A DNA stretch of 48,336 nt from a virus. Shown in pieces: positions 2,383-36,249 of this stretch. The stretch's first letter is position 1. Each line of letters opens with the position of its first letter. Location: positions 1 to 48,336 of the IMG/VR virus record IMGVR_UViG_3300021376_000100, one strand, 5' to 3'. The notes under the pieces were generated by a model, which worked only from the letters and a program-made list of their open reading frames with translations, was not told the origin of the DNA and ran no database searches. Position numbers and translations under genes: made by a program.

Positions 2383-5300
2383 TAGCCAACCTTTATAGGG
2401 ACGGAACCGTTGCGCTTTTGATACGTCTGAAGGGCCGCCACAACCTCTTGGGCGATCTTGTAACCGTCTGCTCCCATTCCGGCGGTCACGTTGATCGTGA
2501 CGTTTCCACCCATAGAGCCCAACGCCGAAAGCGGTACGATGGCCTCGGGGCCCGCTTCACCAACACCGACGATGGCCGGGCCGGTTACGATTCCGCCGTC
2601 GGCCATCCACCCGGAGAAATCAAGTCCGGGCGGGAGATAGACATGATCGGGCCCAACGATTGCGCCGCCATTCGGCAACGGTCCCATGTTCCAGTTCGGG
2701 TACTTTTTCCCGGGGATAAGTTTGTTCGCCTCGGATTCGAGCCATTTTCCGAAGTCTGACCAGTTGATTCCACCAACAGCGGTGTCGTCGATCACCCTTC
2801 CAATCGGAGTGACCGGCACCGTTGAACCTGTTCCTCCACCGCCGATGCTTCGGGAAGGGGGCGGTGTGTACCCGCCGGTCACGGGTCGAGTTACCCCGTT
2901 AAGAGCGTCAGCAATCTGTTGGGCAACAGCCCGCATCGTTGCTTCAAGGTCCGAGATGGCAGTTTCAAGAGCCTGCTGGTTCGCTCGGGCGTTAGCAAGG
3001 TCCGTCGAGGTGGAAGCGAGCACCTGTTGGAAAATGGCATCGACCACCCTGATTTGAGCCTTAAACGCTTGATCGGCGGCGGCGAGGGCCTGATTGTAAA
3101 GGGCATCAACGGCGGAACGTTGCCGATTGAAAGCACTTTCAGCATTACTTATGTCGGTATCGAATAGAACCGATGCGGCGATTTCACCGGCCTGCCCGGA
3201 GATGGCGGCAATCTCTTGTTGAACCGCCATGAGTTGCCCAAGATCAGCGTCCGACATTCCGAGCAGATGCTTCCCAAGGGCGGTGCCTCCTTGAATACCG
3301 GCGGCCACCACTTCGGAAATGATCGAGGGGGGAAAGCCCCGGCTCCGGAGTGAAGCAAGTGTGTCCCGGAAAGTGGTGACCCCCGCAAGCATTTCTCGTG
3401 CTTGGGTTAGAACGTTGCCTTCCGTGTTGAAGGTCATCTTCGCCGTAGATTCGGCGGTACTCCGGGCGTAGTCGGCCCGGGCACCTCGAAGCCTGTCGAG
3501 TTCCGAACGGAGCGATTCGAGGGCATCCTTCTCACGTCCGAGTTGCGCTTCAAGCGAGTTGTCCTCGACGAGCCCCATCGACTCTTGAAACTCCCGGTAA
3601 CCTTCCGCCACGTCATCGAGGGCCCCACGAAGGTCGATAAGTTTACCCTCAGCGTTTTCTAGTTGTTCCGTCGGAGAAAACTCACCAATGCCCTTGAAGG
3701 TCCGATTAAACTCAGCGTACCGTTTCGTAAGATCAGCAAGACCTTTTTCAAGGTCCTTTACAACGGTCTGTTGCGCCTTCAGACGTTCGTTAAGGCCGCC
3801 ACTCCCCTTCAACTGATCGGATGCCGCTTGAAGTTGGCGAGACAGGCCAGAAATGAGTTGTAACGCTTGGGGTCCACCCGCCAAGTTATTGACTCCGAGA
3901 CGGAACGCTTCGTCAATGACGTTGTTTAGAGCATCGGCAATCTGCGGGGCGGTGCCGGAAACGAGACGATCAGCAAAGTCTTTGTCGAATAGTCCAGCGA
4001 CGAATCCCGAAAGGTCCTTAACCCACCCCTCAACCCAATCGAAGTTAGGGGCGTCCGTCTTGGATGAGCCTCCGCCGCCACCCCGTCCGACCTTGCTAAA
4101 CGCTTTCCCAATGTCAATCTGTTGGATGCCATCGAGAAGGTCCTTGACGCTTTTTAGTTCACGGAAGATTGAGCCGTAGAACGCCATGTTCCCGGTCCGC
4201 CGGGCGGCGGCAAGAGCCCCTTCAAGTTGCTTCACCTGTGCTTGAAGTTGCGAAACATCCATTGTCAGGTAGATGGCGATTCGGGGGTCGATTCCGTCGA
4301 GCAGGCCCAGCGATTGAATCAGAGCGTGGGTTTGTTCCCGGGTGTAACCTTGGGCCTCTCCCGCTCGATACATGGATTCCATGAGAAGGCGCATTGTGGG
4401 AATGGCCCCGAACATCTTGTCGGTTGCGCCCTTGGTGGCATACTGAAGTTTTAGAAACTCCGACACTTGGTCAGCGAGAGCACTCTCGAACTGAAGGGCG
4501 GAAACCTTGCCGTCTGACATCGACTCCACGAATGAGATTGCGGCCTGCTCTCCGGTGGCAAGGGCGTTTGCGAAATCGGCGTTCCCGACGTTGGCGGCCC
4601 CGAGCATGGCGAGGCGATACTGTTCGAAGTTTTCGGCGGCACCCGCAAGGGCGTCCGATTGGGAAATGATCGCTTCGGTGGACTCATCGGTGGCCGCCGC
4701 ACTTTCGGCGTTGATGTCGGCGGAGGCGGATGCCGATTCGGTAGCGAGATTAACCCAATGTTGGTATTTCGCAATCTCCTTGACGTTTTCACGGTATGCG
4801 CCGCTGTTGTGATCGAGGGCTTCAGTTTCAAGACGCCACGCATCGAGCAACGCTTGGGCCACAACCGGGGATGATTCAAGCACCTTCTTAAACGCCCGGT
4901 CCACGTCCTCGATGTTGCGGGCCGCCCCTTTGCCTCCGATTTCTAAATCGTCACCGAAATCTTCCCAAAGGTGAGACACCTTAAGGGCGTCGTCCTCTGC
5001 TTTCACCATTGAACGGAAGGCGTCGGTGATGCCTTCGCCAGCATCGTTAGCGGCAATCGTAAGTTGTTGAAGGGCCCGGGACGATTTGCCTGCGATGTCT
5101 TGACTGCTGTTCACCATCGCAAAGACGCCTTCGCTAATGGCGACAGCGCCGGTGGCGATTCCTGCTCCCTTGAACGCCATCCCAAGTTTGGTAACGGATT
5201 CGGTGGCGGTGACCATCGAGATTCCGTATTGAGTCAATGCCCGCTTCGCAAGGAGCAATCCGGCTCCGAGAAGGAGTGCCGTCGAGGTCAAGTCCTTCTG

Positions 5301-17405: not shown

Positions 17406-17710
17406 CCACCGACCGTGATTGGCTTTACCGGGCCGCCTGCCAAGGGCTCGATACCAACCTATTCTTTCCGGAGAAAGGGATGGTTGCGAAAGAGGTCAAA
17501 GAGGTTTGCGAACGATGCCCGGTCCATTCGGACTGTTTAGAATACGCCCTGTCCATTCCTCAGTCTCAGGATTTGACCGGGGTGTTTGCGGGGACGTCGG
17601 CCCGGCAACGCCGAAAGATGCGCCTCGATCAGCAGGATGCCGCCGCAACGTCGCCAACGATTCTGATTTGGGACGCCGAAGCCGGTAAATACCGGAGCGT
17701 CAGAGCCTAA
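17393..17710 (+). CDS. WhiB-family regulator (divergent)
   Basis: 105 residues, AAAGGAAA before the ATG. Four cysteines (16, 39, 42, 48) in the Cx22CxxCx5C pattern would hold a 4Fe-4S cluster. The usual G[VI]WGG turn is replaced by GVFAG, followed by the basic SARQRRKMR segment that contacts DNA. WhiB proteins are actinobacterial transcription factors that bind the RNA polymerase sigma subunit. A phage copy likely redirects host promoters or represses host WhiB genes. It ends four bases over the convergent gene. Confidence 0.9.
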   Translation: MSSLTTDRDWLYRAACQGLDTNLFFPEKGMVAKEVKEVCERCPVHSDCLEYALSIPQSQDLTGVFAGTSARQRRKMRLDQQDAAATSPTILIWDAEAGKYRSVRA

Positions 17711-18198
17711 GCAGGCAAACTGCTCCGAGCCCGGTCAAGGGTGTTAATCAACCCGGTCATCGGAGTTGAGTTTAAACGTGACGTGGCATTATCTAAGTGT
17801 CGGCGGGCCGATTGGAAATCTCCCGCCCGGGCAGAATCGGCGGCATCTTTTACGTCGGCCTTAAACTCTTTCATCTCGGAACGCTCGAAGTCACCCTTCG
17901 AGGAATAGTCCTTGATGTTCTGCTTATAATCGGAAACTGCGGATTCGATGTCATCGGCGGCTTTCGCACCAACCGCTCCGCCTGTTCCCGGGCCGGGTGC
18001 TCCACCGCCACGACCGGAAGTGTATTGGTTGCCCCGGAACGGATGGCCGGCAAAATCGCCCTTCTCGACGTTGCCAAAGCGATTCAGCACCGGAGAGCGA
18101 TGACCCGGAGCAGAGGCGGAAAGGGAGATGTGTTGGTTCCCTCGAAACGGATGGCCGGGCGAATCGCCCTTCTCGACGTGAGCATGGTTCAGAATCAT
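17707..18198 (-). CDS. Head-associated protein with tandem GHPFRGNQ motifs
   Basis: 163 residues. Two copies of VEKGD..GHPFRGNQ (about residues 8-23 and 43-58), then a glycine-rich linker and a helical C-terminal half (DIESAVSDYKQNIKDY, DVKDAADSARAGDFQSARRHLDNA). The KGD-GH-F-GNQ motif recurs in many phage head-region proteins and their fusions, but its job is not established. Start overlaps the protease stop. Probably an internal or protease-processed capsid protein. Confidence 0.7.
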   Translation of the reverse strand: MILNHAHVEKGDSPGHPFRGNQHISLSASAPGHRSPVLNRFGNVEKGDFAGHPFRGNQYTSGRGGGAPGPGTGGAVGAKAADDIESAVSDYKQNIKDYSSKGDFERSEMKEFKADVKDAADSARAGDFQSARRHLDNATSRLNSTPMTGLINTLDRARSSLPA

Positions 18199-28979: not shown

Positions 28980-29768
28980 TTATGAAGGAGCAGGGGTTTC
29001 CCGGTCAATCATTTGACTCATCGAGCGGCCACCGAACCTCTTGACGGCTACCGGAATGTTGTTCTGAACGATGCCGATGCGGACCGATGGGGCGACGGCG
29101 GCGAGAAGGTCGTTCACCTCTTGGTTGTAATACCCGGCCTGTTCAAGAGCCTGCTCGGTGGGGAATACGTCGGCGTGTCGTTCCGTGTCCCGGTTAATGA
29201 GGGCATCCTGTTTGCCGCCGAGGGAGAAGATCGGGCGGAAGTTTGCGGGGGCTCCGGGGAGGGCCCGGCGAACCATCTCAACCTCCTTAGTGTAGGCGTA
29301 GAACAGGACTTCGGGGCGGGTGCGGGCGATCTCGAACCAGCGGTTCAAGTAGTCCCGGGTAAAGAAGTCGCCGGAGTCGTGGATTCGAACCGCTCGGCCC
29401 CCGTTCGCAACCCATCCGGCAACCCATCGGTCGGCAGGGTCGTGGTCAAGGTCGTGCGGCTTGAACGTCGGGTCCATTCGGCGGTGACTGATCTCGTGAA
29501 CCATTTGCTCTTGCCAAGCGTCGGGGTGGATTAGGACGTATTCGAGATTCCAAACGTGGCGGTCGATGACGTTCCGAAAGCGGTAGGTGCCGAAGCGGGC
29601 GTAACAGACTCGGGCGCATGGCCCGGCGTTGGGACAGCAGTTGAAGCGGGTTCCGTCGGAGAGGGTCGTTATGAACGCTGGGAGCGTCCAACCAAACACT
29701 CCGGCCTTCCGGAGTTCGCTGTTCTGCGTTAGAAGCCTGTCGGGGGCGAACGGGTGCTTTGTGAACAT
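28980..29768 (-). CDS. Gp88-like cysteine-motif protein
   Basis: 262 residues from ATG at 29768. An N-terminal CCPNAGPCARVCYARFGTY cluster and a later HDSGDFF..DYLNRWFEIA block, then FYAYTKEVE, match the actinophage gene-product-88 family. The family is related in layout to DUF5131-type proteins with CxxxCxxC iron-sulfur-like motifs. It may be a radical-SAM-like enzyme, but no activity is established. It sits directly after the large terminase gene. Confidence 0.8.
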   Translation of the reverse strand: MFTKHPFAPDRLLTQNSELRKAGVFGWTLPAFITTLSDGTRFNCCPNAGPCARVCYARFGTYRFRNVIDRHVWNLEYVLIHPDAWQEQMVHEISHRRMDPTFKPHDLDHDPADRWVAGWVANGGRAVRIHDSGDFFTRDYLNRWFEIARTRPEVLFYAYTKEVEMVRRALPGAPANFRPIFSLGGKQDALINRDTERHADVFPTEQALEQAGYYNQEVNDLLAAVAPSVRIGIVQNNIPVAVKRFGGRSMSQMIDRETPAPS

Positions 29769-29803
29769 GGCCTGATCGTAACCCCTCGAACTTGACACTT
29801 GTG

Positions 29804-31096
29804 TCAAATCCGCCAAGGGGATGTCTGTTCCAACGATGACGGGATGACAATGGGGGCGGCCTGTTTGGTCAGCATCAGTTCGGTTAGGGCCCAAACGAGG
29901 GCGTCGAGACGATCAGGGGAGTCCGCCGGAGGAACCCAAGAGGCCAACTGTTCCTCTAACTCTCGGAAGATGCCACAATGGGTTATCCGGTTCTGTTCGT
30001 AAAGAGAAACGATAGGTTCGGCCCGCAACGCTTTGCCTCTCATGGCGTGAACCTCACGGATTCGGACGGTGGAGTCCACGGTGCGAATAGTCGTTGCGAT
30101 CATGTCGCCACCCTGATTCGTCTCAACGACAATGGCATCCGCTTTCCAACGGTGGTAGGCGGCGACCGCTTTTGCGGCCCAATCGAGCGGGGAAGCCTTC
30201 AGCGAACAATCTTCTAGGACGTAACCCTTGTCCCCGTACTTTCCGGCGACGACGATGCCAGTCTCGTTCGAAGTCTCTTTGGCGGTTGAAGCGGGGTCGA
30301 TGGCGACAACGATACGGTTCAGTTCGGCGGGTACGTCTCCCCTATTGCGGGTTGCCATTTCGTAAGTCCACAATGCGCCTTCGACGTCCTCCAAGAGTTC
30401 GCCCTCTAGTTCCTGTCGTCCGATTCGGGTGCCTTCGTAACGGCGGCGCAACTGCTCGATCAAGAATGGGGGCAGGTTTGCGGCGTTGTCGTAGGTTCGG
30501 CCTCGGGTGAGGTGAACAGTCTGCCCATCGACAAGGCCCATAAGCAGGCGCATGAACGGGACTGGGGCCGGAGTCCCGGTTACAACGATTCGGGGGCTTC
30601 CCAAACGGAGGGCCGGTTGAATGATGTCCCAAAGGGCGAGCCCATACCGAAACGAGGCGGGTTCGTCGAGCCAAGCCCCGTGAAACTGGGGGCCTCGGAG
30701 ACGGTCCGGGGAAGTCGCCGGAAACACTTTCGCCCGGGACCCGTTGCGAAGGGTGACTTCGGTGGTTGTCCGGTTGTAAGAGCGCACCCCTTGATCGAGA
30801 ACGCTTAAAAGGCCGGACTCCCCTTCAACGCAGACGTCTCGGCCATCTCCAAACGTTGGGGCAACGATGGCCCAACGGGTCATCGGTCGAGTAACCATCT
30901 CGTTCGCAAGCCATTCGGCGGCGGTGCGGGTCTTTCCGAATCCACGTCCGGCCACTAGAAGCCACAAATACCATTCCCCGGGGGGAGGCATCTGTTCCGG
31001 ACGGCCAACGATTTGCCATCGAACACGGCCCTGAATCTCGACCGGCAACGCCGCTAACTGTTTGGCGGCCTGCTCTTTAGACAGGGCGGCGGGCAT
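29804..31096 (-). CDS. terL: Large terminase subunit
   Basis: 430 residues. ATPase: GRGFGKT Walker A at 50-56 and WLDEP Walker B at 142-146, then a VVTGTP coupling motif near 171. Nuclease: VVAIDPAS with Asp-267, VVETNQGGD around 340 and a late acidic DRLDAL. This is a Terminase_6-like packaging motor that cuts and pumps DNA through the portal. It follows the small subunit by three bases. Confidence 0.96.
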   Translation of the reverse strand: MPAALSKEQAAKQLAALPVEIQGRVRWQIVGRPEQMPPPGEWYLWLLVAGRGFGKTRTAAEWLANEMVTRPMTRWAIVAPTFGDGRDVCVEGESGLLSVLDQGVRSYNRTTTEVTLRNGSRAKVFPATSPDRLRGPQFHGAWLDEPASFRYGLALWDIIQPALRLGSPRIVVTGTPAPVPFMRLLMGLVDGQTVHLTRGRTYDNAANLPPFLIEQLRRRYEGTRIGRQELEGELLEDVEGALWTYEMATRNRGDVPAELNRIVVAIDPASTAKETSNETGIVVAGKYGDKGYVLEDCSLKASPLDWAAKAVAAYHRWKADAIVVETNQGGDMIATTIRTVDSTVRIREVHAMRGKALRAEPIVSLYEQNRITHCGIFRELEEQLASWVPPADSPDRLDALVWALTELMLTKQAAPIVIPSSLEQTSPWRI

Positions 31097-31099
31097 CGG

Positions 31100-31504
31100 T
31101 CACGACTTCAACGATTCGGCAATCTCGATAATGCTCTTGGCAACCGCTTCGGGGTCGTTAATCGAAACTTCCGCTTGGACCCGATCAGGGGCGTACAAGC
31201 CGAGATACTTCGCCCGGGCGTCGAGAATCCGAAGCACCGTGTTGATCTTGCCGGTGTCCCCCTTTCGAGCCTCCGCCCACACCCCTTGAAGGAGCCGTTC
31301 AAGCCGAGACAGTTCCTCCGCCAACAGGTCCTTCGCCGGAGCCTCCACCAGTTCAGCAAGTGCTTCCTGAACGTCCCGATGAGCATGAGCCCGCCCCGAA
31401 TACTTCAACCGCTCCGCAATCTGTTCGTATGTCAAACCCATCGCCCGGAGTTCAAGAGCCTGCGCCCGGCGTTGGGCCACCTCAACCTGCTTCGGTGTCG
31501 CCAT
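31100..31504 (-). CDS. terS: Small terminase subunit (probable)
   Basis: 134 residues, AAGGAGA before the ATG. The N-terminal RRAQALELRAMGLTYEQIAERL helix-turn-helix fits DNA recognition. The following long helices (LLAEELSRLERLLQGVWAEARKGD) match oligomerisation segments of small terminases. The place directly before the large subunit supports it. Confidence 0.82.
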   Translation of the reverse strand: MATPKQVEVAQRRAQALELRAMGLTYEQIAERLKYSGRAHAHRDVQEALAELVEAPAKDLLAEELSRLERLLQGVWAEARKGDTGKINTVLRILDARAKYLGLYAPDRVQAEVSINDPEAVAKSIIEIAESLKS

Positions 31505-31542: not shown

Positions 31543-31617
31543 TGGCTGGGGTGAGAGGTTTCGAATCCCTCTTTACGGGTTCAAAGTCCGTTGTCCTGCC
31601 AGTTGAACGACACCCCA
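31543..31617 (-). tRNA. tRNA-Gln (anticodon TTG), CCA encoded
   Basis: The cloverleaf can be folded by hand. A seven-base acceptor stem TGGGGTG pairs with CACCCCA, the D arm is GTTC/GGAC, the anticodon loop CTTTGAA has TTG, the T loop is TTCGAAA, the discriminator is G and the 3' CCA is encoded. Two stem positions are A-C mismatches (31:39 and 53:61), the second at a normally G-C pair. It lies between the ParB-like gene and the small terminase gene. Confidence 0.82.
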
Positions 31618-31621
31618 AGGG

Positions 31622-32440
31622 TTATTTGGTGAGTGCCTGTTGGCAGAGTTCGAGGAGGCGGACGGCGGGTTGGGCTCCGAGTGCTTCTTTGACGATGTTT
31701 GCTTCGTCGTTGGTGAAGGTGAGGTTGAGCCGGTAGATGGCCCGCTCTTTCTGAATCTGCTCTCGTTCCTCTTGGGTCCGGGCTTCTGCGATTCGCTTCT
31801 CTTGGACTCGGGCGGCTTCGATAGCGGCGGGGGTAAGGGCGTCTTGTTGGGTTCCTCCGGTGACGGCGGAGATTTCGCCTTTCTCTTGGAATACGGCGGC
31901 CTGCGGTTCCCATGCTTGGGTGAAAGCGGCGGCGGCCAAGGCTTCGGGGGCAGGGATGTCCTCCAACAGACGGTTTAACTCGTCGTCAGTTAGTCGGAGG
32001 GAATCTTGGGCCCAATCGAGTGCGCCGAGACGTTCAAGGTCACGAAGGACCTCGGTTGCGAGTTCGATGTCTTCGGAGCCTCGGGCTCGGTTGTGGCGGA
32101 GGGTGGCGATTCGGGCCTGCTCCAAGGTCATTGGGACGACAGCAAGGGGTACTTCGGTGAAGCCAAGATGGTTTGCGGCCCGCCAACGGTGTTCACCATC
32201 GACAATCGTGAACGGGTAGGTCTTGGCCTCATCCGGGTCGGCGGTTCGAACGGCAACGATGGGTTGAGTGAAACCGTCCTCGGAGATTGAGCGAAGCAAC
32301 AGGTCGAAGTCGGCGTCGGATTGCCGGTTCGGGTTGTAACTGTTCGGTTTGATCGCCGTGACTGGGGCGTAAACGATTTCCAGTTTTTCGAGGGCCTGAT
32401 TCTTCTTGGCGATGACCGCCTTACCCTTGTTGTTTGCCAT
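31622..32440 (-). CDS. ParB-fold protein 1
   Basis: 272 residues. Has the ParB/sulfiredoxin-fold N-domain: PNSYNPNRQSDADFDLLLRSISEDGFTQPIVAV, then IVDGEHRWRAANHLGF (box with GEHRWRA). The C-terminal half is helical with a glutamate/arginine coiled coil (EEREQIQKERAIYR). Not a plasmid-partition ParB in context. Such phage copies resemble IbrB, which pairs with a PAPS-reductase-like IbrA. A PP-loop gene lies nearby. AAGGAGA precedes the start. Confidence 0.85.
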   Translation of the reverse strand: MANNKGKAVIAKKNQALEKLEIVYAPVTAIKPNSYNPNRQSDADFDLLLRSISEDGFTQPIVAVRTADPDEAKTYPFTIVDGEHRWRAANHLGFTEVPLAVVPMTLEQARIATLRHNRARGSEDIELATEVLRDLERLGALDWAQDSLRLTDDELNRLLEDIPAPEALAAAAFTQAWEPQAAVFQEKGEISAVTGGTQQDALTPAAIEAARVQEKRIAEARTQEEREQIQKERAIYRLNLTFTNDEANIVKEALGAQPAVRLLELCQQALTK

Positions 32441-32465
32441 GGTTCTCTCCTTGTTCGTGTTGGGT

Positions 32466-33068
32466 CTAGTGGTTGGAAGGGGGGTTAGGAAAGTGTTCGT
32501 ATTCGGGCTCTTGGAAGGTGAGGGACACCCGGGCCGATGAACGTTTCGGGCTTACAATGGAGCGGCTTCGTTGATGGTCCACGAGGGAAGGGACGTGGAG
32601 AAAGTATTTACGTCGTTGGACACGGAACATTTCCCTCATCATTGAATCATCTTCGGTGTCGGGATGAGCCTCGAAATAGGGGGCCCAAGCCGGGGACCAA
32701 AAGAACTCGATGATGTCCTTCGAGACACCTGCCGGGAGATAGAAGCATTGGTTCATAAGGTAGGTCGAGCCAAGGCAATACCGGGAACCGACCGTGAGAT
32801 CATCTTTCCTCATTGAAAAGAACTGGATTACGTCATCGGGGCGGTCTGCGATTACTTTCTCGACTTTGGCCACAAAGTCCTTGGTCAGGATGATGTCGTC
32901 TTGAAGCCGGATTACGGGGTCATTACCGGCCATTTGGCAGGCTCTTAGAAAGGTGTCGATCAGCGATCTTTTCTCATCCCAACAGATTTCTAAGTTTGGA
33001 ATGTGATGCTGAAGGTACTCGACGGTCGGAGTCCTCTCCGGAACGGCGGTAACGATCACCCTAGTCAT
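32466..33068 (-). CDS. Glycosyltransferase-like protein
   Basis: 200 residues from ATG at 33068 with GGGAGGTGG upstream. VIRLQDDIILTKDFVAKVEKVI contains a DxD-like motif (QDDI). Later GSTYLMNQCFYLP, EDDSMMREMF and PSLVDHQ follow the order seen in small GT-A-type transferases of phages. It may add sugar to DNA bases or to virion proteins. The acceptor cannot be told from sequence. Confidence 0.65.
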   Translation of the reverse strand: MTRVIVTAVPERTPTVEYLQHHIPNLEICWDEKRSLIDTFLRACQMAGNDPVIRLQDDIILTKDFVAKVEKVIADRPDDVIQFFSMRKDDLTVGSRYCLGSTYLMNQCFYLPAGVSKDIIEFFWSPAWAPYFEAHPDTEDDSMMREMFRVQRRKYFLHVPSLVDHQRSRSIVSPKRSSARVSLTFQEPEYEHFPNPPSNH

Positions 33069-33408
33069 TGAGCCACCTCCCACTCTTTGCCACGTCTGTC
33101 CTTTGGCGGTTAATGACGTAGTTGTCCGACGGGTCGAAGTCCTGTTCCCAATCGGGGAGCAACCACTTCGGCATTATCCAATAGGTGTACCCGTCGGGGG
33201 AGTCGAGATACTTCCAAACCTGCTTCGATTTGTAGAAAGGCCGGATGACCCCGAAGTCCCGTGAGGCAAGACGTACACGGTGCCAAACAGCGAGCCCGTT
33301 CGGAATGGATTTGCTCATTAGGTACTCGTGCGGTGGGTCATACGTCATGGTGGCCCGGAACGTTAGGCGTGACAGTTCAGCAAAGAGGTCATCGAGCGGG
33401 TCGGTCAT
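33061..33408 (-). CDS. Hypothetical protein in the ParB/PP-loop cassette
   Basis: 115 residues, ATG at 33408 five bases after the PP-loop gene stop. Aromatic-rich (VWKYLDSPDGYTYWIMPKWLLPDWEQDFD). No recognised fold. It overlaps the glycosyltransferase-like start, so the two are probably translated together. Confidence 0.6.
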   Translation of the reverse strand: MTDPLDDLFAELSRLTFRATMTYDPPHEYLMSKSIPNGLAVWHRVRLASRDFGVIRPFYKSKQVWKYLDSPDGYTYWIMPKWLLPDWEQDFDPSDNYVINRQRTDVAKSGRWLND

Positions 33409-33412
33409 CGTT

Positions 33413-34567
33413 TCACCATGTTGGGGAACCGCCCCACGTCCCGGACCCGGGACGAAAGAACTCGGGTTCGACGTAGGACAACATTCCGCCTGTTGCGGCG
33501 GCAAACGGGTCCCCAAGGTACATTGTCTCGGCGGCCTTTTTCCATGAGCCAATCACGGCGTGGCATTGGTAGCACTTGTTCGCTTGCGGGAATGGGGTTG
33601 AAGCGTGACGGGAGTGCTGAGCCAACACCGTCTTAATGACCTTCTCGGCCCGTTCCGCAATCCATTCCGGAGCCTCGTGGACACACTCCCGCCAAAACGT
33701 TTGCTCCCACGATTCGCCCAACATCCGGCGAGGGGTCACCGCCCGGCGGCCAAACTGGGCCACGGTTCGAACACCCGGGAGGCGTTGCTCCAACTTGTCG
33801 AACCATTGTGGCCACGCTGTTCGGGCAATAGCGAGGTTCGAAGCCCCGTGGATGTTCATGGTCGGCGGGCCGATTCGCAACTGTCCGGGTTTAACCCCGT
33901 GACGGTGGAGAACGTCATAGGCCGAGTTGTAATCCCATTGGTTTTCGAGGATGGCCTTCCAAACGTCGCCATCCTCCCAATCGTAAATAGGACGGATGCG
34001 GCGCACCCCGTACTTCTGCGGCTTTGTAATGTGCCCCTTAGAGGCAAATAGGCCACGTCTCCGGGAGAACGATTCCGAAATGCGGAGTCCGATCACCGTA
34101 AACAGTTCCTTACCTTCGGCGGGTGGGAAGCGGTTCGGTGTTACCATCGAGTCAATGTTCTTTTCGGGGATTTCGTAGGCGATGCCCGGCGGTTGTCGAA
34201 GCCAGTCGGAGGGGTCGAGCAACGGGTCGAATACCCAAAAGTACGGTTGGCGACGGTTGAAGCAGTTGATGACAGGTTGCCGGGCGTAAATCCAATGAAA
34301 GTCGATCTCGGGTCGAGCGGCGATACGTTCGGCGTATTCGTAAGAGCCGGGGAACATCACTTCCTCGTCCCTCATGATCACTTCGACGGGCAGGCGGTTG
34401 GTGATCGTGGCCGCAATCACGGCGAGTTCAACACACACTCCGGAATCTTTGCCGGTTGAGAACGAGACAACGACCCGATGTCCGTGTTCATACACTTCTA
34501 CAAGCCGGTTAATGGCCTCGTTAAATACGTCTGTTCCAAGGTCCCGGCGGCGGGTCGGTGCGTTCAC
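33413..34567 (-). CDS. PP-loop ATPase, PAPS-reductase/DndC-like
   Basis: 384 residues. GTG start overlapping the methyltransferase stop, with GGAAGGAAA upstream. The PP-loop SFSTGKDSG (35-43) binds ATP. RDEEVMFPGSYEYAERIAAR and VIGLRISESFSRRRGLF follow as in phosphosulfate reductase-like enzymes. The C-terminal CYQCHA pair may bind metal. Relatives include IbrA and DndC, which act in sulfur or adenylation chemistry. The neighbouring ParB-fold, methyltransferase and glycosyltransferase-like genes suggest a nucleic-acid or small-molecule modification pathway. Confidence 0.85.
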   Translation of the reverse strand: MNAPTRRRDLGTDVFNEAINRLVEVYEHGHRVVVSFSTGKDSGVCVELAVIAATITNRLPVEVIMRDEEVMFPGSYEYAERIAARPEIDFHWIYARQPVINCFNRRQPYFWVFDPLLDPSDWLRQPPGIAYEIPEKNIDSMVTPNRFPPAEGKELFTVIGLRISESFSRRRGLFASKGHITKPQKYGVRRIRPIYDWEDGDVWKAILENQWDYNSAYDVLHRHGVKPGQLRIGPPTMNIHGASNLAIARTAWPQWFDKLEQRLPGVRTVAQFGRRAVTPRRMLGESWEQTFWRECVHEAPEWIAERAEKVIKTVLAQHSRHASTPFPQANKCYQCHAVIGSWKKAAETMYLGDPFAAATGGMLSYVEPEFFRPGSGTWGGSPTW

Positions 34568-35268
34568 GGTTTCCTTCCAATGACTACGGCGTGGTAATGA
34601 TAACGGGCCGGGATGAACCTTGTCGCCCGCATGAGTCGAGAAATCACCTTTTCGGGGAGGACCCTGCTCAACCAGTCGGGAACCGCATTACAACCGATTA
34701 GCCGGACCCCTTGGAAACCTGCCAGTTTCATGGCCTCTTTCATGGCCTTAGCCGTACAAGCGGCGTTGTAATCGTCGGTCACGTTGCCGGTAGCCCCCGG
34801 AGCCCGAAATCGTCGGAGCGGAAGATTTCCGTGGAGGAGGGCATACCCGTTTTCGGTCAGGATTTCGAAGGCCATGTTGTAAACGGCTTGATCGTGGAAG
34901 GCGTGGAGGGCCCAAAGAGCAGTTACGGTTTCAGCAGAACCGAGATAGGTGGAGTGTTCAACGACCCGCTTGCGGCCTTCAAGAGTGTTTAAGTCGGCCT
35001 CAACTTGGGAAACGTGGCCCGGTTCAATGCGGGACGATGACGATACAAGGTCCGACATCATTTGTGAGGATTGATCGACGGCAACGTAAATGAACGGTTC
35101 GCAAAGGTGTTTTATGAGTCCAGTCCCGGCACCAAGATCAACGACAACCGCCGATCTTGCGAACGGGCGAAAGATGGACTTGATTACCTTGTCCTCGGAC
35201 CGCCCAATCTTCGTATCATAAAAGGCGTTATAGGTTTCCGCTACTTGCTTCCCGTATCCGTTCACCAT
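34564..35268 (-). CDS. SAM-dependent methyltransferase (class I)
   Basis: 234 residues, GGAGGAA before the ATG. VVVDLGAGTGLIKHL (41-55) is motif I for S-adenosylmethionine. AVDQSSQMM and VEADLNT are motifs II and III, and ALWALHAFHD follows. No DNA-methylase catalytic motif such as DPPY or PC is visible, so the target may be a small molecule, sugar or protein. Overlaps the ribbon-helix-helix gene by 41 bases. Confidence 0.82.
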   Translation of the reverse strand: MVNGYGKQVAETYNAFYDTKIGRSEDKVIKSIFRPFARSAVVVDLGAGTGLIKHLCEPFIYVAVDQSSQMMSDLVSSSSRIEPGHVSQVEADLNTLEGRKRVVEHSTYLGSAETVTALWALHAFHDQAVYNMAFEILTENGYALLHGNLPLRRFRAPGATGNVTDDYNAACTAKAMKEAMKLAGFQGVRLIGCNAVPDWLSRVLPEKVISRLMRATRFIPARYHYHAVVIGRKP

Positions 35269-35422
35269 TCTGTTCCTCCCAAACGGCTATTGCCCACCTT
35301 ACAACGTCCGAGAGGGTGACGCTTTCAAAGGCGGCCACCCGGTTGAGAATGTCACGGTCGATTTGTGAAACACGGACGGCGATTACAACCGTTTGTTCCG
35401 GGTTAATGCCACGCCTTTTCAT
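35228..35422 (-). CDS. Ribbon-helix-helix protein
   Basis: 64 residues. TVVIAVRVSQIDRDILNRVAAFESVTLSDVVRWAI fits the MetJ/Arc ribbon-helix-helix fold: an N-terminal strand, then two helices. Likely a repressor of the cassette or of its ParB-like neighbour. ATGA overlap with the upstream gene. Confidence 0.75.
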   Translation of the reverse strand: MKRRGINPEQTVVIAVRVSQIDRDILNRVAAFESVTLSDVVRWAIAVWEEQNGERIREASSGNL

Positions 35423-35895
35423 GTTGGGCCTCCGGTTTGCCAACGGTGGCCGCACTCCGGGCATCGGTGAGTGAACGGGGTCGGTTCAGCAAAGTCCGGT
35501 GGCACTCGATTAGCGGAGCGAAGCAAAGCGTCGATGTCGTCCCCGTCGTAACCTGTTCCATCGAGGTTTCCTGTTAGGGCCATGTCTTTCAGCAAATCGC
35601 CTAACGTTTCGATGTCGTAGGTGGCGAGGTCCGACGTCCGATTATCCGCTAAAAGGATACGTTTGGCCGTGGAGTCGTCGCAATCAACCCAATAGACGGG
35701 AACACTCTTAAATCCGAGAAGCCGAGCGGCTTCAAGCCGATGGTTTCCGGCGAGAACATGACCGGTCGAGCGTTGCGCTACAACAGTTCCAAACCATCCG
35801 TTCATTTGGATACTTTCCGCAATCGCCCCAATGTCACCCTCTCGTGGGTTAAAGGGGTGTCGGGTTAGATCACCAACGTTTACGTCCTCGATCAT
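35419..35895 (-). CDS. ParB-fold protein 2 with zinc-ribbon tail
   Basis: 158 residues. HPFNPREGDIGAIAESIQMNGWFGTVVAQ and VLAGNHRLEAARLLGFKSVPVYW form the ParB-like domain (box GNHRLEA). LADNRTSDLATYD follows. The C-terminus has CPECGH, with HRCPECGHRW as a half zinc ribbon. First gene of the modification-like cassette and divergent from a WhiB gene with only 21 bases between starts. Confidence 0.82.
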   Translation of the reverse strand: MIEDVNVGDLTRHPFNPREGDIGAIAESIQMNGWFGTVVAQRSTGHVLAGNHRLEAARLLGFKSVPVYWVDCDDSTAKRILLADNRTSDLATYDIETLGDLLKDMALTGNLDGTGYDGDDIDALLRSANRVPPDFAEPTPFTHRCPECGHRWQTGGPT

Positions 35896-35916: not shown

Positions 35917-36249
35917 ATGTACCGTTCTATTGTGGACCGAATAGATTATGAGTTACCGGAGCCTCCTCCGCCGATAGGCCCGTGGATAACCGAAGCGGTC
36001 TGCTCGGGAATGGACATTTCTCTGTTTTTTCCGCCTTCAGGGCACCGGCCAATCGAGGCTTTGGAAGCCTGCTCCCGGTGTCCGGTCCGTCAAGAGTGTC
36101 TCGATTATGCCATTGACAATAATCAACATTGGGGCGTTTGGGGCGGCCTAACGGAACGTCAGCGATTCAGTTACAAACGGAAGCGACGATTATTCCGGGA
36201 CTTAATCGAGTTCGGTAACACGGTGCTCATCCGTTTCGACAATCCTTAA
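35917..36249 (+). CDS. WhiB-family regulator (canonical)
   Basis: 110 residues. Cysteines 29, 52, 55 and 61 (Cx22CxxCx5C) bind an iron-sulfur cluster. GVWGGLTERQR (73-83) and the basic KRKRR tail are the classic WhiB signature. Unlike the WhiB at 17.4 kb, all motifs are intact. It is divergent from the ParB/PP-loop cassette, so it may regulate that cassette or host genes. The start has only a weak ribosome site. Confidence 0.95.
   Translation: MYRSIVDRIDYELPEPPPPIGPWITEAVCSGMDISLFFPPSGHRPIEALEACSRCPVRQECLDYAIDNNQHWGVWGGLTERQRFSYKRKRRLFRDLIEFGNTVLIRFDNP

Follow-up and report, generated by a model that had tools for sequence, protein, structure and literature searches.

What do seven tightly packed genes beside the terminase genes of a phage make together? 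The question is raised by IMG/VR virus record IMGVR_UViG_3300021376_000100, whose 48,336 bases (the window, meaning the whole stretch analyzed) represent a tailed phage with terminase, portal, RecT, RusA, HNH, and O-like initiator genes. At 31622-35895, seven minus-strand open reading frames mostly overlap or are separated by gaps of a few bases. On balance, we favor reading this cassette as a modular phage hypermodification pathway, acting most likely on phage DNA after replication. Its obligate core consists of a PP-loop ATPase and ParB/Srx-fold proteins, and its glycosyltransferase (GT), methyltransferase (MT), and a small protein that we call Unk are tailoring parts that have been exchanged, lost, and gained. 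The genes are listed here in their order along the minus strand, where tRNA-Gln and the terminase genes come next.

35419..35895, minus strand: ParB1, ParB/Srx fold with a GNHR motif and a C-terminal CPxCG knuckle (phrog_723, E 4e-40; ParB_N, E 1e-4)
35228..35464, minus strand: ribbon-helix-helix (RHH)-like small DNA-binding protein (weak matches to RelB_antitoxin, ORF56, and DUF6290)
34564..35268, minus strand: MT, class I S-adenosylmethionine (SAM)-dependent methyltransferase (Pfam, E 8e-4; small-molecule methyltransferase profiles, to 4e-17)
33413..34567, minus strand: PP-loop ATPase, IbrA-like, the catalytic core (PF01507, E 7e-11)
33061..33408, minus strand: Unk, new family of ~100 amino acids with the pattern PHxY ... 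YWxM ... INR (39-member alignment A6)
32466..33068, minus strand: GT, GT-A-fold glycosyltransferase with a DD motif, D57 D58 (AlphaFold2 and Foldseek; 60-member alignment A5)
31622..32440, minus strand: ParB2, IbrB-like ParB/Srx fold with a GEHR motif (ParB_N, E 1e-12)

An obligate core of PP-loop ATPase and ParB proteins

A preliminary description of this DNA had grouped the seven genes as one cassette. All seven were confirmed, and a neighborhood survey found the set kept as a unit in relatives. By tblastn, the order ParB1-RHH-MT-PP-loop-(DNA methylase)-Unk-GT-ParB2-TerS-TerL, with a divergent WhiB gene, was preserved in L002, L003/L004, and L012 at per-gene identities of about 40-98%, and L003 and L012 carried an extra inserted DPPW methylase-like gene. 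An array kept in order in this way is not due to chance.

A GT profile search yielded 117 relatives on viral contigs, of which 80 were kept; together with loci from bacterial assemblies, these collapsed into 68 groups when clustered at 90% nucleotide identity. Counts were made on the 45 non-redundant loci with at least 3 kb on each side of GT. A PP-loop gene was present in all 45, ParB in 43, Unk in 33, an oxygenase-like gene (OG4) in 20, and MT in 12, and all 67 PP-loop genes lay on the same strand as GT. Since the PP-loop protein had tblastn matches in just 199 of 50,697 phage records, its adjacency to GT in every case cannot be background. Five GT relatives from bacterial assemblies also adjoined PP-loop genes, with a weak PP-loop score in L128.

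Seeding with the PP-loop protein and pooling the results gave 142 non-redundant loci, 89 of them with at least 2.5 kb on each side. Every one of the 89 had a ParB gene within 3.5 kb of the PP-loop gene on the same strand. GT was found in 47, Unk in 45, MT in 24, OG4 in 21, and a DNA-methylase-like gene in 12, fractions that favor GT, since it was the route by which many of the loci were obtained. The pairing of a PP-loop enzyme with ParB-fold proteins had been likened to IbrA/IbrB, and this likeness was strongly supported: iterated profiles seeded with the window proteins recovered the annotated IbrA and IbrB of L038 (E 2e-97 and 1e-56) as members of the same families.

In the 142 PP-loop homologues, S37, G39, K40, D41, and S42 of the SxGKDS motif were 100% conserved, and D67, E69, G160, E165, R169, D196, D201, Y217, and R231 were essentially so. 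The closest solved relatives by profile were the adenylyl-transferring enzymes CysD and FAD synthase, followed by 3'-phosphoadenosine-5'-phosphosulfate (PAPS) reductase. Judging from these residues and profiles, the protein is probably catalytically active as an ATP pyrophosphatase and adenylates its substrate. The enzyme had also been called DndC-like, a label not borne out in the sense of sulfur transfer. No alignment column held cysteine in more than 51% of the 142 sequences, which argues against sulfur transfer of the PAPS reductase or DndC type. The protein fell far short of the curated cysH cut-off (19.6 vs. 165 bits) and scored 12 bits against the DndC model TIGR03183, whose cut-off is 290. 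DndA, DndD, and DndE partners were absent from the cassette proteins and recurrent neighbors. The missing conserved cysteines and the curated cut-offs led us to rule out sulfur transfer, PAPS reductase, and DndC roles; the enzyme probably passes no sulfur via conserved cysteines of its own.

The ParB fold binds various nucleoside triphosphates (PMC12704722). ParB1 had a ratio of nonsynonymous to synonymous substitution rates (dN/dS) of 0.02 against the closest relative of the window, L002. In another locus, L139, the ParB2 homologue (2648-4366) was split by an apparent intein immediately ahead of the conserved TQPVV motif. Inteins usually insert at functionally critical positions.

Exchangeable tailoring genes

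By single-sequence searches, ParB1, ParB2, and the PP-loop protein were confirmed as family members, as was the neighboring WhiB, and MT, RHH, and GT scored weakly; MT became clear with an alignment profile and GT with a structure model. The AlphaFold2 model of GT (predicted local distance difference test [pLDDT] 94, predicted template modeling score 0.90) matched GT-A enzymes in the PDB with Foldseek probability 1.00, among them GnT-I, POMGNT1 (TM 0.61), KfiA, and Mimivirus R655; RmlA-type sugar nucleotidyltransferases, which have a related fold, were also matched. With the match to phrog_854 glucosyltransferase (E 3e-6) and the acidic D57 D58 conserved in the family, the model indicates that the protein first noted as glycosyltransferase-like is a GT-A-fold enzyme. 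The conserved (Q/E)DD resembles the metal motif of GnT-I-type enzymes.

Unk belongs to a new small family without a solved structural relative. Its AlphaFold2 model had a pLDDT of 90; a fold search of the PDB returned no match below E 0.4, Pfam, PHROGs, and NCBIfam gave nothing convincing, and the single BFVD match was an unnamed protein of 93 amino acids (A0A516LRX9). P26, H27, Y29, Y76, and N100 were invariant in the family. In the GT-seeded loci, Unk typically lay directly upstream of GT with a 4-base overlap, and it was fused to MT-like domains in L029/L033, L028, L067, L073, L095, L189, Hendrix gp156, and Leaf gp158. Alignment A6 suggests that Unk probably starts at 33408, giving 115 amino acids. 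The start of GT was corrected to the ATG at 33068, and that of RHH is perhaps an internal ATG near 35422.

The alignment profile of MT matched many class I SAM-dependent methyltransferases (E down to 4e-17); a scan with the single protein returned one near-identical contig and nothing else. MT adjoined the PP-loop gene directly upstream in most close relatives. We dismissed a DNA methyltransferase role for MT, as a motif check found no NPPY/DPPY and no PC motif.

These parts come and go around the core. On a quick maximum-likelihood tree of the PP-loop proteins, presence of GT changed at least 13 times and that of MT 7 times, and PP-loop proteins from loci with GT shared as little as 19% identity with one another. 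Most loci had GT upstream of the PP-loop gene, others downstream. Other versions of the cassette were joined by HxD..H oxygenase-like, cupin, GNAT, and DPPW DNA-methylase genes. OG4 carried an invariant HxD...H (H78, D80, and H123 in alignment A7), a pattern suggestive of Fe(II)/2-oxoglutarate oxygenases. Of the 142 loci, 24 had a cupin gene immediately upstream of the PP-loop gene, and 13 had a GNAT acetyltransferase gene. If a modification pathway has interchangeable tailoring steps, a fixed core surrounded by rotating accessories is what one would expect to see.

Comparison of the window with L002 pointed to one such exchange.

32466..33408, minus strand: Unk+GT block, apparently replaced as a unit relative to L002 (nucleotide identity drop, synonymous rate)

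Over Unk and GT (about 33.42 to 32.47 kb), nucleotide identity was 72-89%, compared with 92-98% on both flanks, and synonymous substitution rates (dS) were about 1.0-1.2 in the two genes vs. 0.08-0.34 in their neighbors. The drop in identity together with the high dS indicates that the two genes were most likely exchanged jointly by recombination. Their dN/dS of 0.05-0.09 points to purifying selection on what is most likely a working pair. We dismissed positive selection on GT, as its low identity to L002 reflects the recombination block and its dN/dS was 0.09.

Two further gene groups were seen among the loci. Those with a cupin between ParB and the PP-loop gene (for example, L144, L151, L170, L173, and L180, where the protein has 253 amino acids and matches Cupin_2 at E 2e-10) represent another version of the cassette, distinct from the first. 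Opposite the cassette in about 18 loci (such as L020:3723-5249, L007, and L023, minus strand) lay an Amidoligase_2 gene (E 2e-34) together with a gamma-glutamyl-cyclotransferase-like gene; the pair is a separate amide-forming module, perhaps linked to the cassette and perhaps not.

Putative regulatory genes and flanks

The cassette is bordered by a divergent regulator gene on one side and by the packaging genes on the other.

35917..36249, plus strand: WhiB-family regulator, divergent from the cassette (Pfam Whib, E 3e-21)
31543-31617: tRNA-Gln (ttg), between ParB2 and TerS
31100..31504, minus strand: probable terminase small subunit (TerS), flanking the cassette and named by its place before TerL
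29804..31096, minus strand: terminase large subunit (TerL; Terminase_6N, E 6e-23)

The preliminary description had placed a WhiB gene 21 bases away, and the family match confirms it; the gene held the same divergent position in L002, L003, L004, and L012. RHH homologues were found in L002, L003/L004, and L012 only. Terminase gene clusters lay near the PP-loop gene in other loci too (54, 11, 9, and 9 of the 142), at median distances of 2.5-3.6 kb downstream. Elsewhere in the window, a GP88 family gene (28980-29894, E 2e-43) overlaps the end of TerL; it was kept in L005 and L012 and split in L002 by an interruption of roughly 750 bases. One protein (17710-18198) contains a repeated peptide, GHPFRGNQ(H/Y), with two copies visible, and the C-terminal third of the product of 18198-19463 matches PHROGs labeled RNA ligase, DNA methyltransferase, and head maturation protease.

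Substrate, rival explanations, and known systems

Three features of the gene neighborhood suggest DNA as the likeliest substrate: the ParB partners, the DPPW proteins of relatives, which resemble N6/N4 methylases, and the place before the terminase. No phage polymerase or nucleotide-pool enzyme was recognized among ten selected window proteins, and a DNA mark would thus be post-replicative. In the mechanism that we propose, ParB1 and ParB2 would bind the target nucleic acid or open it up, much as DpdB probably does for DpdA. The PP-loop enzyme would adenylate a target oxygen for replacement by an amine or similar group, leaving a nitrogen- or carbon-linked handle instead of one carrying sulfur delivered by protein cysteines. 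MT might alter the handle or the sugar, Unk would position the acceptor, and GT would add a sugar from a nucleoside diphosphate sugar. The resulting product would protect DNA in the capsid against host nucleases, and RHH and WhiB would regulate the cassette. A more specific proposal, which we consider a little less likely than not, is that such cassettes constitute an undescribed class of DNA hypermodification, in which a ParB/Srx-guided, IbrA-type PP-loop enzyme installs a sulfur-free base handle that exchangeable modules decorate. The modules would be GT with Unk, a methyltransferase, an iron oxygenase, a cupin, and an acetyltransferase, and if this is true, one core would give different base chemistries in different phages.

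Several points weigh against a DNA hypermodification pathway. Tests of independent pairs on the tree did not significantly link GT with Unk, OG4, or MT (median p 0.25-0.5), so the evidence that the tailoring genes are coupled comes from their adjacency, the fusions, and the block swap. Annotation of polymerase and nucleotide genes covered the ten selected proteins. The tailoring set is co-conserved with the core, but we infer the base as target from the neighbors, and we found nucleoside analysis for no family member. To our knowledge, no chemistry is known for a PP-loop enzyme and ParB alone, such as Streptococcus IbrA/IbrB.

An unlikely alternative is that the product of the cassette is a modified nucleotide, signal, or tRNA, which might serve to counter nucleotide-based host defense or to tune translation. 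Both tRNA and nucleotides are frequent substrates of PP-loop enzymes, the adenylyl transferases CysD and FAD synthase are among the top profile matches, and a tRNA-Gln gene lies beside ParB2. However, this gene was confined to the window and near-identical contigs and absent from all more distant relatives examined, on which ground tRNA modification was dismissed, and the obligate ParB and DNA-methylase neighbors fit DNA better. We give somewhat less credence still to the suggestion, contained in the name IbrA/IbrB (activator of eib genes), that the PP-loop and ParB proteins are gene regulators or a superinfection or defense module. Homology and adjacency match annotated IbrA/IbrB, RHH and WhiB are nearby, and the PP-loop protein weakly resembles BrxP and DndC of defense systems, but a regulator would need neither invariant catalytic residues nor a glycosyltransferase and a methyltransferase, and no nuclease effector was recognized in the cassette.

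Modification of a host surface glycan for seroconversion or receptor masking, a third substrate named in the preliminary description, is improbable, although a glycosyltransferase with a methyltransferase is typical of seroconversion islands. The cassette proteins have no membrane segments (maximum KD19 1.39), no GtrA/GtrB-like partners occurred among the recurrent neighbors, and GT is tied to the PP-loop gene throughout the GT-seeded loci. A gtr seroconversion island was rejected because the cassette proteins contain no hydrophobic segments, as a membrane flippase or anchor would. The multi-step modification proposed in that description is supported by the exchangeable tailoring enzymes around a fixed PP-loop/ParB core, and its surface-glycan variant is disfavored. 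Least credible of all is that the PP-loop gene is an auxiliary metabolic gene for sulfur assimilation, as its Pfam family name, the PAPS reductase label on several phage records, and common annotation (e.g., PMC8879888) would have it; the lack of a conserved cysteine, the missed cysH cut-off, and the constant presence of ParB all oppose it.

Phage "PAPS reductase" genes are common and often read as sulfur metabolism (PMC8879888; PMC10434257), and they have been called worth further investigation (PMC11437467). With ParB linked in every qualifying locus and tailoring enzymes rotating around the core, this annotation puzzle becomes a concrete DNA-modification hypothesis, and a cassette pathway may account for many phage genes labeled "sulfur metabolism." Phage DNA hypermodification with glycosylation is already known, whereas we did not find this enzyme combination in the open-licence literature, outside of which earlier predictions may exist. 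A new glycosylated base and an acceptor-binding family in Unk, if real, would be useful to phage biology and nucleic-acid enzymology.

Among known systems, the glucosylated hydroxymethylcytosine of T4 likewise has a phage glycosyltransferase decorating a handle. T4 makes its handle in the nucleotide pool, an enzyme step with no recognized counterpart among the ten annotated window proteins. IbrA/IbrB of Streptococcus phage CHPC1230 are adjacent members of the same PP-loop and ParB families in the same order but lack a glycosyltransferase, methyltransferase, and Unk. The left end of Pipefish-type mycobacteriophages (Obutu genes 1-6) has ParB, two small genes, PP-loop, ParB, and terminase, as in the window, but the PP-loop protein is 26% identical, and homologues of GT, MT, and Unk were not detected. 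In the Dpd systems for 7-deazaguanine in DNA, a ParB-like ATPase, DpdB, is paired with and serves the base-modifying enzyme DpdA (PMC12839542; PMC6884629); the cassette differs in having a PP-loop enzyme, and no TGT-like DpdA or preQ0 genes were seen in it. Carboxymethylcytosine hypermodification by CmoX/CmoY also involves a handle and ATP-dependent tailoring of phage DNA, often with ParB nearby, although its enzymes are a C5-methyltransferase, a Cx-SAM synthase, and an asparagine-synthetase-like ligase (PMC12783734).

The Microbacterium phages Hendrix and Leaf share with the window the PP-loop enzyme and Unk with MT, and Hendrix additionally the GT family and three ParB genes with terminase. 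At the right end of Hendrix are gp154 (GT family, 32% identical to the window GT), gp155 (glucosyltransferase), gp156 (Unk-MT), gp157 (acetyltransferase), and gp158 (PP-loop); at the left end of the record are the three ParB genes, an RNase E-labeled gene, and TerL. If the genome is circularly permuted, these genes form one array with the layout of the window, and the arrangement in Leaf is similar. Unlike the window, these phages have Unk and MT fused, extra glycosyltransferases and an acetyltransferase, and a PP-loop protein about 28% identical. As a cultured phage, Hendrix makes the cassette hypothesis directly testable.

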